The notes under the pieces are model-generated. The model saw nothing but the letters and a program-made list of their open reading frames with translations, was not told the DNA's origin and made no database searches. DNA of 50,763 bases from Clostridia bacterium (GTDB taxonomy: Bacteria > Bacillota > Clostridia > Oscillospirales > CAG-272), in assembly GCA_017463405.1 (NCBI GenBank), contig JAFTPJ010000150.1:1-50763 (forward strand), written 5' to 3'. Position numbers and translations under genes: made by a program. Positions 6,336 to 42,029 of this stretch are shown piece by piece (position 1 is the first letter of the stretch; every line of letters starts with the position of its first letter).

Positions 6336-7043
6336 ATGATGGATTCCGAACATAATCTGAATACGGAAAATGAAATTGAGCGCCCGCAGGTTTCTCCTGC
6401 CGTGATTCGTCGATTGCCGCGCTATTTTCGGTATTTGCGTGAACTGATTCGCGAAGGAAAGATGCGCATCAGCTCCGGTGAGCTTTCCGAACGAATGAAC
6501 GTCACCGCATCTCAGATCCGACAGGATCTCAATTGCTTTGGCGGCTTCGGTCAGCAGGGATATGGCTATAACGTCAATTATCTGTACGCCAAGATCTGTG
6601 ATCTGCTCGGCGTCAGCGCAGGACTTTCCGCAATCATCATCGGAGCGGGTGACCTCGGTCGTGCACTGACCCGCTCGACCATGTTTGAAAAGCGCGGCGT
6701 GGATATCATCGCTATGTTTGACGTCGACGAAAATCTGATCGGCAAAACGATAGGAGACGTGCTCGTTTACAGCATGAACGATCTGGAGTCGTTTTTTGAA
6801 ACCCACACGGTTGATATGGCGGTTCTGACCCTTCCAAAGGATCAGGCTGCGGTAGAGGCAGAGCGTCTGCTGGAGCTCGGTGTCAAGGGCTTCTGGAATT
6901 TCACGGGAAAAGAGCTTTCCTATGCCTCCCGTGCGATTGTGGAGAACGTTCATCTGGGGGACTCCCTGATGTTTCTCAATTACGATATCTGCCGCTTGAA
7001 GGAAGCAGAGGAAAAGACTGAAGCGGGGAGCGATCGAGTATGA
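6336..7043 (+). CDS. rex: Redox-sensing transcriptional repressor Rex
   Basis: A 235-residue NAD(H)-responsive repressor that derepresses fermentation genes when NADH rises. The N-terminal winged helix contains ISSGELSERMNVTASQIRQD and FGGFGQQGYGY. The C-terminal Rossmann domain has GAGDLG at residues 103-108 and a swapped C-terminal helix. AGGAAGAGG precedes the paired ATGs at 6336 and 6339; the longer frame back to 6267 lacks a ribosome site. TTTAACAA at 6250-6257 matches one half of a Rex operator, so autoregulation is possible but unproven. It overlaps the next gene by 4 bases. pfl at 46.9-49.1 kb is the sort of gene Rex controls. Confidence 0.95.
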   Translation: MMDSEHNLNTENEIERPQVSPAVIRRLPRYFRYLRELIREGKMRISSGELSERMNVTASQIRQDLNCFGGFGQQGYGYNVNYLYAKICDLLGVSAGLSAIIIGAGDLGRALTRSTMFEKRGVDIIAMFDVDENLIGKTIGDVLVYSMNDLESFFETHTVDMAVLTLPKDQAAVEAERLLELGVKGFWNFTGKELSYASRAIVENVHLGDSLMFLNYDICRLKEAEEKTEAGSDRV

Positions 7044-17333: not shown

Positions 17334-17600
17334 GAATAAAACCGAAGAGGAAGAGGAGTAGCAGGACAGAGTGTTCTTCAGAGAGCTGCCGGCGGTGAGA
17401 GTGTAGTGTGCGCAGTCGTGTGAATGGACTTCCGAGGGCGAACCGAAATTGCATTGTAAGAGTAGGCTTCGACGGGGTATGCCCCCCGTTATCATGGCGG
17501 CGCATATGATGGTATGCGATGAGAGGAAGCGAAAGCTTCAATGAGGGTGGCACCGCGAATTCGTTCGTCCCGATTATCAGTGTGATAATGGGGCGTTTTT
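17334..17600 (+). promoter_or_regulatory. Tryptophan T-box riboswitch
   Basis: A tRNA-sensing leader. The conserved T-box sequence AGGGTGGCACCGCG lies at 17544-17557, and the competing terminator hairpin at 17566-17595 ends in a T-run (17596-17600). Stem I occupies about 17340-17450 with AGTAG near its base. The specifier codon is most likely TGG (Trp) at 17425-17427 in TGAATGGAC, which agrees with the downstream tryptophan synthase gene. Uncharged tRNA-Trp would favour the antiterminator and switch the gene on. The specifier assignment is by position and sequence, not by folding software. Confidence 0.92.
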
Positions 17601-40276: not shown

Positions 40277-40537
40277 ATGTCCGAAAAGGTCATTCTTGTG
40301 TTGGTGGACGGTATGATGCAATGCGGCAATCCGTTTGCAAAGGAGCTGATATCAAAATCCGCGTACACGCTGAACGCGCGCACCGTGTTGTCATCGGTCA
40401 CACTACCGTGCCATATGTCGCTGTTCCACTGCGTCGATCCCGATCGCCACGGCATTCTTTCCAATACCTACATGCCACAGGTGCGTTCCATCGACCTCCC
40501 GCCCGTGAAGGAATGGGAAGGAAAACCGATTGTATAA
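40277..40537 (+). pseudogene. N-terminal fragment of a nucleotide pyrophosphatase/phosphodiesterase-like gene
   Basis: An 86-codon frame with an excellent ribosome site (AAAGGAGG). It carries the first metal site and nucleophile region of the alkaline-phosphatase superfamily: VILVLVDGM, SSVTLPCHMSLFH, DRHGILSNTY. Full-length proteins have about 270 or more residues; here the frame stops just after QVRSIDLPP with an unrelated-looking tail. A terminator follows 6 bases later. Deletion of the rest of the gene is the simplest explanation. Confidence 0.78.
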
Positions 40538-40542
40538 AGAAC

Positions 40543-40576
40543 AAAAGGTGTTGTTTTTACGGACAGCACCTTTTTT
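40543..40576 (+). terminator. Terminator after the phosphodiesterase fragment
   Basis: AAAAGGTGTTGT (40543-40554) pairs with ACAGCACCTTTT (40563-40574), one G-U pair, followed by further T. Confidence 0.8.
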
Positions 40577-40595
40577 GAAAATTTATTCTGGAATG

Positions 40596-40624
40596 TTGAC
40601 ATTTGGAAAGAAATGTGGTACAAT
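40596..40624 (+). promoter_or_regulatory. Promoter of the structured leader and BspA-like lipoprotein
   Basis: TTGACA (40596-40601) and TACAAT (40619-40624) with a 17-base spacer. Transcription would start near 40631, which is exactly the first base of the long paired structure described next. Confidence 0.8.
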
Positions 40625-40630
40625 AAAAGA

Positions 40631-40736
40631 GCCAAACAAAATTCAATAAGTACCAATGGGATACGCATTTTTAGTTTCGATAAAAATGCATATGCCTGTT
40701 TTTCCGTATTCCGTTGGAAAATGAATTTTGTTTGGC
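40631..40736 (+). ncRNA. 106-nt strongly folded leader RNA (candidate riboswitch or small RNA)
   Basis: Three helices stack into one long structure. P1: GCCAAACAAAATTCA (40631-40645) with TGAATTTTGTTTGGC (40722-40736), 15 perfect pairs. P2: CCAATGGGATAC (40653-40664) with GTATTCCGTTGG (40706-40717), 12 pairs including two G-U. P3: GCATTTTTA (40665-40673) with TAAAAATGC (40681-40689), 9 pairs, loop GTTTCGA. Unpaired parts are 40646-40652, 40718-40721 and a 16-base bulge at 40690-40705. It starts at the predicted transcription start and is followed by an intrinsic terminator (40761-40796). No class of RNA that I know matches it. It contains no reading frame of note. Confidence 0.6.
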
Positions 40737-40760
40737 GACAATTGAGGCTGTGCGTTTTTT

Positions 40761-40796
40761 GTGCGTATGACTTCGGTTGTATGCACTTTTTATTTT
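40761..40796 (+). terminator. Intrinsic terminator inside the leader, just before the lipoprotein ribosome site
   Basis: GTGCGTATGAC (40761-40771) pairs with GTTGTATGCAC (40776-40786) around a C(TTCG)G tetraloop, followed by TTTTTATTTT (40787-40796). The ribosome site AAGGAG begins at the very next base. A terminator here would block the downstream gene unless relieved, the arrangement of transcription attenuation. Confidence 0.75.
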
Positions 40797-40811
40797 AAGG
40801 AGAAAAAAGAA

Positions 40812-42029
40812 ATGAAAATGTTGATGCTGTTACTGTCCGTAGTATTGTTGTTGTCTTTGACATCATGCGATTTTTTGGAGACGCTTGCGCAAAAGCAGGC
40901 GGAAACAACGGTATCGGATAACGGAACAACCGCACCACCGAATGGGGAAACAACTGCGCCGTCCGATGGAGAAGTGACATCTTCTACGCCATCCGTAGAC
41001 AAACCGGAGGATTGTGAGGGGCATGATTTTGGGGAGTGGATTGAATTGGAGGCTCCAAGCTGTGTTGCTGATGGGGTGAAAAAACACATCTGCCGAAATT
41101 GTGAATATGAAGAACGTCGTGTAATTTCCGGTGAAAATAAACATACATACAGTACCAATAACAAATGTATCTTATGCGAGCGTGAAATCATTGCATCTGC
41201 AGGTCTTGTGTATAAGGAAGTGGATGATGGTTATGAGGTTAGTGGATATGATGGGAATTTACCTACAGAGGTTGTGATTGCACCATATTATAATGGAAAG
41301 CCTGTGGTGGGCATCGGTTCAATGGCATTCGTGTTGTGCAGAACGCCTCTTATAAGCATAGAGATTCCGAGCGGTGTGACAAGCATTGGTGATATGGCAT
41401 TCTACGGTTGTGAGAGTCTTACAAACGTTATAATCGGTGATGGTGTGATGAACATCGACAATTATGCGTTTGCGGGTTGCACAAGTCTTACAAGCATCAC
41501 GATTCCGAATGGCATGATGGGTATTGGCGAGGGAGTTTTTTCCGGTTGCACAAGTCTTACTGACATCAAGATTTCGGATAGCGTGACGAGCATTGGAAAA
41601 GGTGTGTTTTCTTCTTGCGCAAATCTTACAAGTATTATAGTTGATGCAGGAAATACAGTTTATCATTCAGCAGGAAATTGCCTGATCGAAACCGAAAGTA
41701 AGATATTGCTTTTTGGATGTAAAAGCAGTATCATTCCAAACGATGGAAGCGTAACACGCATTGGTGAGTTTGCCTTCTATGGTTTCAATATTCTTACAGA
41801 TATCGTGATTCCGGATAGCGTGACGCGCATTGATGATTCTGCGATCAGCTGGTCATCCTTGACGAGCGTATACTACGGAGGTACAGCAGAGGATTGGAGT
41901 AAGATTTCAATTGGTGATGTAACGTATAAGCTTTTCGGTACTGATTATATCTACTACTATACCGAAATCGAGCCCACAGAGGATGGCAACTACTGGCACT
42001 ATGTAGACGGTGTCCCGACTAAATGGTAA
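40812..42029 (+). CDS. BspA-like leucine-rich-repeat lipoprotein
   Basis: A 405-residue surface lipoprotein. The lipobox ends at Cys19 (SLTSC). A Thr/Pro/Glu-rich linker (about 27-70) leads to one CxxC module (about 75-130, EAPSCVADGVKKHICRNC) like those in the lipoprotein at 22707. Then come at least six BspA-type leucine-rich repeats (about 150-350) of the kind SVTSIGKGVFSSCANLTSI. The C-terminal part ends with YYGGTAEDWSKI, common at the end of this repeat type. Such proteins bind host or partner-cell surfaces. The start at 40812 uses AAGGAG at 40797-40802. Its expression probably depends on read-through of the leader terminator. Confidence 0.9.
   Translation: MKMLMLLLSVVLLLSLTSCDFLETLAQKQAETTVSDNGTTAPPNGETTAPSDGEVTSSTPSVDKPEDCEGHDFGEWIELEAPSCVADGVKKHICRNCEYEERRVISGENKHTYSTNNKCILCEREIIASAGLVYKEVDDGYEVSGYDGNLPTEVVIAPYYNGKPVVGIGSMAFVLCRTPLISIEIPSGVTSIGDMAFYGCESLTNVIIGDGVMNIDNYAFAGCTSLTSITIPNGMMGIGEGVFSGCTSLTDIKISDSVTSIGKGVFSSCANLTSIIVDAGNTVYHSAGNCLIETESKILLFGCKSSIIPNDGSVTRIGEFAFYGFNILTDIVIPDSVTRIDDSAISWSSLTSVYYGGTAEDWSKISIGDVTYKLFGTDYIYYYTEIEPTEDGNYWHYVDGVPTKW

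Follow-up and report, generated by a model that had tools for sequence, protein, structure and literature searches.

The window analysed here, positions 1-50,763 of contig JAFTPJ010000150.1 of the Clostridia bacterium assembly GCA_017463405.1, contains a promoter that reads into a long folded leader and a terminator just ahead of a BspA-like lipoprotein gene. This locus raises the question of what such a leader is: a regulator of the gene behind it, a small RNA in its own right, or a repeat inserted ahead of the gene. On the basis of the comparisons described below, we hold with good confidence that the element is a self-contained promoter-plus-leader unit representing a new class of cis-acting transcription attenuator.

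All parts of the window element lie on the forward strand. A motif scan placed the −35 box TTGACA at 40596-40601 and, after a 17-nt spacer, the −10 box TACAAT at 40619-40624; this promoter matches the consensus at 11 of 12 positions, has a TG before the −10 box, and is followed by a 6-nt gap to 40631, the predicted first base of the transcript. The same base opens P1, a perfect 15-bp helix predicted by folding between 40631-40645 and 40722-40736, with covariation in homologues. Within it the fold contains P2 (12 bp, 40653-40664 with 40706-40717) and P4 (9 bp, 40665-40673 with 40681-40689). Downstream, a scan identified an intrinsic terminator with its stem at 40761-40786 and its T-run at 40787-40796, and the sequence AAGGAG (40797-40802), a ribosome-binding site, follows. 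The gene behind it (40812-42029) encodes a protein of 405 aa that a simple motif marks as a lipoprotein by its lipobox-like start, and Pfam LRR_5 (E 9.1e-41) identifies a BspA-type LRR region in it. The preliminary description had proposed a promoter ahead of a leader with helices of 15, 12 and 9 bp, transcription from the first base of the first helix, and a terminator hairpin and T-run adjoining the ribosome site, and all of these were found where it had located them. The fold is far from random: when the 401 nt around it were letter-shuffled 2000 times, a perfect 15-bp inverted repeat never arose, and 40631-40811 folds at −61.1 kcal/mol, where shuffled sequences average −36.1 (z −6.4) and none of 200 is as low. 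Simple scans of the region returned promoters and terminators at about shuffle level (4 promoter matches vs 5.5 in shuffles, and 3 terminator matches vs 1.8), and the weight of these two calls therefore rests on conservation in homologues. Directly upstream of the promoter, in the segment 40277-40575, a short ORF of 86 aa that by eye resembles the start of a phosphodiesterase-type protein, with a terminator-like inverted repeat after it at about 40545-40575, is perhaps a gene remnant.

Homologues of the element are numerous. In a BLAST search, 55 of 60 relatives gave matches at E <= 1, with many strong hits and several to a genome; those near E = 1 may be chance. A pattern scan of named genomes, which required CAAWYGGRG and TTCGGYTG and hence part of the antiterminator described below, found at least 120 stretches; among the 80 matches listed, nearly all names were those of uncultured Clostridia or their kin, and many came from ruminant, deer or rabbit gut samples. 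One of the matches listed, in Microvirga (L115), was unrelated and was left out. The 28 homologues that were inspected share a common order of elements and fall into two size types, type A of about 140-180 nt, which the window element resembles, and type B of about 185-245 nt. For quantitative comparison, 338 candidate places, many of them chance, were reduced first to 179, then to 135 by filters on P1, a loose −10 box and the junction, to 134 by filters on loop, length and S1:S2 energy (< −15 kcal/mol), and to 132 by removal of near-duplicates; P1 pairing and a loose −10 box within 16 nt were thus selection criteria for this set. A length and motif rule divided the 132 into 35 of type A and 97 of type B, from which 32 and 40, respectively, were aligned.

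The distribution of the family was surveyed with R1, a covariance model of the 3′ core, counting a genome as positive at E <= 1e-4. Matches were obtained in 68 of 197 genomes of the order sample and 96 of 391 of the class sample, and the phylum sample of 299 yielded solely the window's own genome; the copy counts of the order and class scans (26 and 13 candidates scored per genome) are lower bounds. The window genome has 6 copies, and twelve genomes picked for high copy number have 7-22 each. Copies within the window genome are divergent, the next best match being 80% over 73 nt. Three of them (L163, L190 and L191, on contigs C70, C35 and C56) precede short proteins with similar starts, which by eye are apparently paralogues.

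The preliminary description had proposed a search for compensatory base changes in homologues, and such changes were found. In the 132 elements P1 has 60 double-change cells, whereas none of 2000 shuffles gave more than 18. Within type B, both partners of the inner P1 columns are altered in 17-21 of 40 sequences, as are those of P2 in type A in up to 15 of 32. P1 is also conserved in sequence (GCCAAAC/GTTTGGC) beyond what pairing needs, with at least 129 of 132 elements agreeing at five of ten positions.

A second long-range pairing joins S1, within the P1 domain (40682-40697 in the window), to S2 just downstream of P1 (40745-40759), and this pseudoknot from the P1 loop is a part of the switch that the preliminary description lacked. 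In the window the duplex has 15 bp and one bulge (−18.0 kcal/mol), and the element's own S2 ranks best for its S1 among the 132 S2 sequences. In the type B alignment 95.1% of S1:S2 cells are paired and 7 show a change in both partners; the type A figures are 96.4% and 12. Taken as wholes, the tested structures containing S1:S2 outscored every one, or almost every one, of 500 shuffles, and a displacement of 1-3 columns left 31-49% of cells paired instead of 97.8%, and 40-58% instead of 98.3%. Over the 132 elements the mean energy is −18.5 kcal/mol for own S1:S2 pairs, −15.3 for cross-pairs and −9.9 for shuffled interiors. Because the sequences of S1 and S2 are so conserved, no more than 12 of the 132 elements, the window element among them, have their own S2 as the strongest match for S1, and in some (L021, L070 and L081) the own pairing is worse than the row mean. 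Among divergent elements, one on L090 differs entirely from the rest in both S1 and S2, which nevertheless remain complementary (−20.5 vs a row mean of −7.7), and in a set of 33 divergent elements own pairs average −16.8 kcal/mol vs −12.9 for cross-pairs, being stronger than the row median in 29 of 33. This set comprises elements of tandem arrays and of other lineages, with the promoter gap as part of the choice, and 2 of 35 (L249 and L261), in which no P1 was found, were left out.

S1 overlaps the 3′ strand of P4, so that in the window the bases of S1 could pair either with S2 or, in part, with the 5′ strand of P4. In type A, P4 uses the same S1 bases as S1:S2 and covaries (88.1% of cells); as both pairings covary, the same bases keep two alternative partners, at least in type A. 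The data point weakly to a P4 in type B, where 84.6% of cells pair, 4 of 500 shuffles do as well, and shifting the helix by +1 to +3 columns yields at least as many double changes.

The second half of the switch lies around the terminator. A second GTGCG just before it (40750-40754) had been suggested in the preliminary description to compete for the 3′ arm. The repeat is real, but the competing helix is larger, joining 40738-40755, which overlaps S2, to 40763-40780, a segment made up of the terminator 5′ arm, the loop and the first part of the 3′ arm. The terminator stem itself covaries in the 132 homologues, with 185 double-change cells against a shuffle maximum of 85. In this main set 97% of cells are complementary between CAATCGGAG after P1 and CTTCGGTTG within the terminator region; however, the set adds little support for the antiterminator, since the helix hardly varies (2 double-change cells, where shuffles have a mean of 0.3 and a maximum of 3) and the search pattern demanded part of it. 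The 33 divergent elements give a clearer picture, their own duplexes averaging −19.4 kcal/mol vs −13.9 for cross-pairs and being stronger than the row median in 33 of 33. Compensatory change is seen, for example, in L255, where CAATTTGGAGCTAAG stands opposite TTTAGTTTCAAATTG; in L247 and L256 a few bases of the antiterminator strand (GATT) fall, as judged by eye, within the terminator loop and keep their complementarity. Comparison of the sequences thus shows what the parts are and how they follow one another, and compensatory change shows that P1, S1:S2, P4 of type A and the antiterminator are conserved.

Energies were compared in 127 of the 132 elements, the other 5 having no clear terminator anchor. 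The antiterminator fold is stabler than the terminator hairpin in 111 of the 127, and the difference between whole states is −7.2 ± 4.7 kcal/mol toward the stop state before the cost of the pseudoknot. As this cost is commonly taken as several kcal/mol, the two states would be near balance, as a switch needs.

We propose that RNA synthesis would begin at the first base of P1, which would enclose a domain with P2 and P4, and that the strands S1, S2, T5 and T3 (the last two being the terminator arms) would form, in this order, a relay of helices that exclude one another. For read-through, P4 would sequester part of S1, leaving the segment after P1, S2 included, free to pair with the terminator 5′ arm and loop; with this antiterminator in place, RNA polymerase would continue into the gene. 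For the stop state, S1 would leave P4 and form the pseudoknot with S2 across P1, the antiterminator would be blocked, and the terminator would halt transcription before the ribosome site. That transcription really ends there, which of the two states prevails by default, and that some cellular signal shifts the equilibrium through the P1-P2-P4 domain are inferences. The pairing order S1:S2, S2:T5, T5:T3 is that of the trp attenuator, and a ribosome translating a leader peptide might in principle set the switch; however, 6 of the 132 elements have a leader ORF preceded by a ribosome site, against a shuffled expectation of 7.5, which leaves ribosome-mediated attenuation hardly credible here.

An attenuator should stand ahead of the gene that it controls, and most of the homologues do so. 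In 123 of 132, a −10 box that agrees with the consensus at 4 or more of 6 positions is separated from P1 by exactly 6 nt, and among 124 copies with enough flanking sequence, 116 have a same-strand gene start within 300 nt, at a median of 34 nt from the terminator, whereas on the divergent side a gene start falls within 300 nt in 48 of 116. The order of promoter, folded domain, antiterminator/terminator and gene that the preliminary description had read as that of an attenuator is thus conserved, and the scatter away from genes that would have suggested a repeat did not appear. Three traits expected of an attenuator are found together: a same-strand 5′ leader, a terminator before the ribosome site, and an exclusive, covarying antiterminator.

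The alternative already raised in the preliminary description, a free small RNA with its 3′ end at the terminator, here taken to act in trans, has to be weighed against the same data. Tandem arrays of two or three complete promoter-leader-terminator units (L236 on G173:C48, L237, L238, L239, L241 and L243) are in its favour: the units, each with its own promoter and terminator (three on L236), would be superfluous in a plain leader and count against an attenuator. S1 and S2 vary between units in some of these arrays, and on L239 the flanks are duplicated too. On L242, where the first unit is incomplete, each of two units is followed by a second segment resembling S2 and the terminator. A few copies also have no same-strand gene behind them, namely both units of L239 and, among 20 further copies, L250, L259 and L264 by our rule, with L246 doubtful and probably without one. 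These copies and the self-contained tandem units fit a free RNA or a spare unit, and a minor free-RNA role is thus possible. However, the tie to a downstream gene in nearly all copies, and the conservation of an antiterminator for which a free RNA would have no need, make it improbable that this is what the element is, and the attenuator remains our preferred reading.

Terminal inverted repeats, many copies per genome and, on L239, tandem duplication including the flanks would also be expected of a mobile, MITE-like repeat inserted ahead of genes, with P1 as its terminal inverted repeat. Two pattern matches came from viral contigs, L158 and L159, the latter outside the final 132. The former, at 6412-6578 of IMGVR_UViG_3300011008_000947, is a convincing type A element within the set; it lies at the contig end beside ORFs that by eye resemble phage tail or baseplate proteins and an ISAs1-like transposase, and is, judged by eye, a phage-borne or neighbouring copy, which again would suit a mobile repeat. 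With the window element as the only query, annotated phages gave 31-nt matches in 7 Staphylococcus phage records, and a single type-B element used as the only query found no match among plasmids. Against mobility, flanking direct repeats are about as frequent as in re-paired flanks, with no target-site duplications beyond chance; copies within one genome are divergent; conservation stops at the promoter and the T-run; and the interior stems change compensatorily. We therefore regard a MITE-like origin of the family as very unlikely, and treat the element further as an attenuator.

To which signal such an attenuator might respond is suggested by the genes that follow it. The preliminary description had proposed collecting homologues ahead of LRR lipoproteins, and LRR genes are indeed among them, but the family is wider. 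By simple letter patterns, and relative to mechanically chosen control ORFs from the same loci, some of which are perhaps not genes, an N-terminal hydrophobic segment occurs in 66 of 95 downstream proteins of at least 100 aa (controls 25 of 118), a lipobox-like start in 30 of the 95 (7 of 118) and LRR repeats in 21 (1 of 118). A Pfam scan of 110 of the 118 downstream proteins found LRR_5 in 21 and an SLH domain in 1, and for 18 copies in G282 and G463, inspection by eye placed a BspA-like exported protein behind 9 and an exported-looking protein behind 13. The genes behind the elements are thus mainly those of exported or membrane proteins and not LRR genes alone, and because of this the signal probably relates to the cell surface or the surroundings.

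Two kinds of sensor within the attenuator reading can be considered. In a strict riboswitch, a sub-case of the attenuator, the P1-P2-P4 domain would bind a metabolite or ion that favours one state. A conserved folded candidate sensing domain coupled to an expression platform is present, with P4 weak in type B; the two-state relay joined to a structured upstream domain agrees with this reading, and a general signal would lead one to expect what is seen, a single leader type that recurs many times in a genome and stands in front of many unrelated genes. However, the compared copies have no obvious unpaired, invariant binding core, interior length and sequence vary between copies and between types A and B, and the downstream genes have no biosynthetic or transport theme that would hint at a ligand, so that we consider a riboswitch quite possible but stop short of calling it probable. 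A protein-responsive attenuator, in which an RNA-binding protein would read the near-invariant P1 or the CAA just after it, would account for the conservation of P1 beyond pairing need and for the CAA that persists where the antiterminator makes no use of it (one of three units of L236, both units of L239, and L240). On the other side, compensatory P1 changes to GCCACAC, GCGACAC, GCAACAC and GCGGTAC exist, and the CAA is missing in two of three units of L236; this reading we put forward tentatively.

The family appears to be undescribed so far as an RNA of gut Clostridia. At gathering cut-offs no family of Rfam 15 matched the window over the element, and a loose search of 40400-41000 gave only hits of E 3.2 or worse, far under the cut-offs; for 17 homologue loci no match up to E 1 overlapped the element. 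The view that it belongs to no known RNA class has therefore held, in that no Rfam 15 family matches it better than chance. The T-box model RF00230 does not match the element either, its only match in the window being a separate and ordinary T-box leader at 17336-17575 on the forward strand (103.9 bits). The literature searched, to the extent of the portions accessible, does not describe the element, and a 2017 list of 224 motifs may contain the family; the accessible portions of PMC2864571, PMC2965389, PMC11109978, PMC8632094 and PMC6429828 mention no such element.

If the attenuator reading is true, a quarter of the sampled class genomes (96 of 391) carry a regulatory RNA that is missing from the reference library, in up to 22 copies per genome ahead of genes for BspA-like proteins, lipoproteins and membrane proteins. 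Such surface genes probably mediate the contact of gut Clostridia with host, diet and phage, and the element would offer a handle on surface control in organisms that are mostly uncultured. Both the candidate sensing domain and the antiterminator/terminator part carry a comparative signal, which allows the complete switch to be modelled from its sequence, and a hunt for a ligand would have a clear yes/no readout, termination at the predicted site. With less than even confidence, we suggest a new riboswitch class, absent from Rfam 15, with its own promoter and a pseudoknot relay, serving in up to 22 copies per genome as a common sensor through which one small-molecule signal would set the surface-protein repertoire of gut Clostridia.

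Several known systems resemble the element in part. The trp attenuator alternates between pairings 1:2 plus 3:4 (stop) and 2:3 (read-through), and trp-type attenuators thus share with the element the alternation of stop and read-through pairings; however, the element's 1:2 pairing is a pseudoknot across P1, and no leader peptide was seen. The T-box is likewise a 5′ leader with an antiterminator/terminator choice, and the same organism has one, but the element does not match its model. Riboswitches for c-di-GMP control many surface genes, and c-di-GMP-I (GEMM) and other multi-gene riboswitches are like the element in their many copies per genome, their diverse and often membrane or surface genes, and their two-state control. 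The element differs from c-di-GMP-I in having a terminal P1 at the transcription start and the S1:S2 pseudoknot, with no Rfam match above chance. In terms of genomic context, the nearest system is the SLH motif, a riboswitch candidate with 80 examples in Synergistaceae, Clostridia and Negativicutes according to the accessible part of its report, which is likewise a leader RNA candidate ahead of surface (S-layer homology) genes, partly in Clostridia, and with which the element is compared by description (PMC6429828). Mobile attenuators, as portrayed in the accessible part of their description, also place related terminators ahead of unrelated genes, but are highly conserved and of transposon origin, whereas copies of the element diverge with compensatory change (PMC2965389). 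Among transcription attenuators and riboswitch candidates, and with the SLH motif compared by description only from the accessible part of its report, the element would thus form a class of its own, in which a promoter, a candidate sensing domain and a pseudoknot relay are combined in a single unit.
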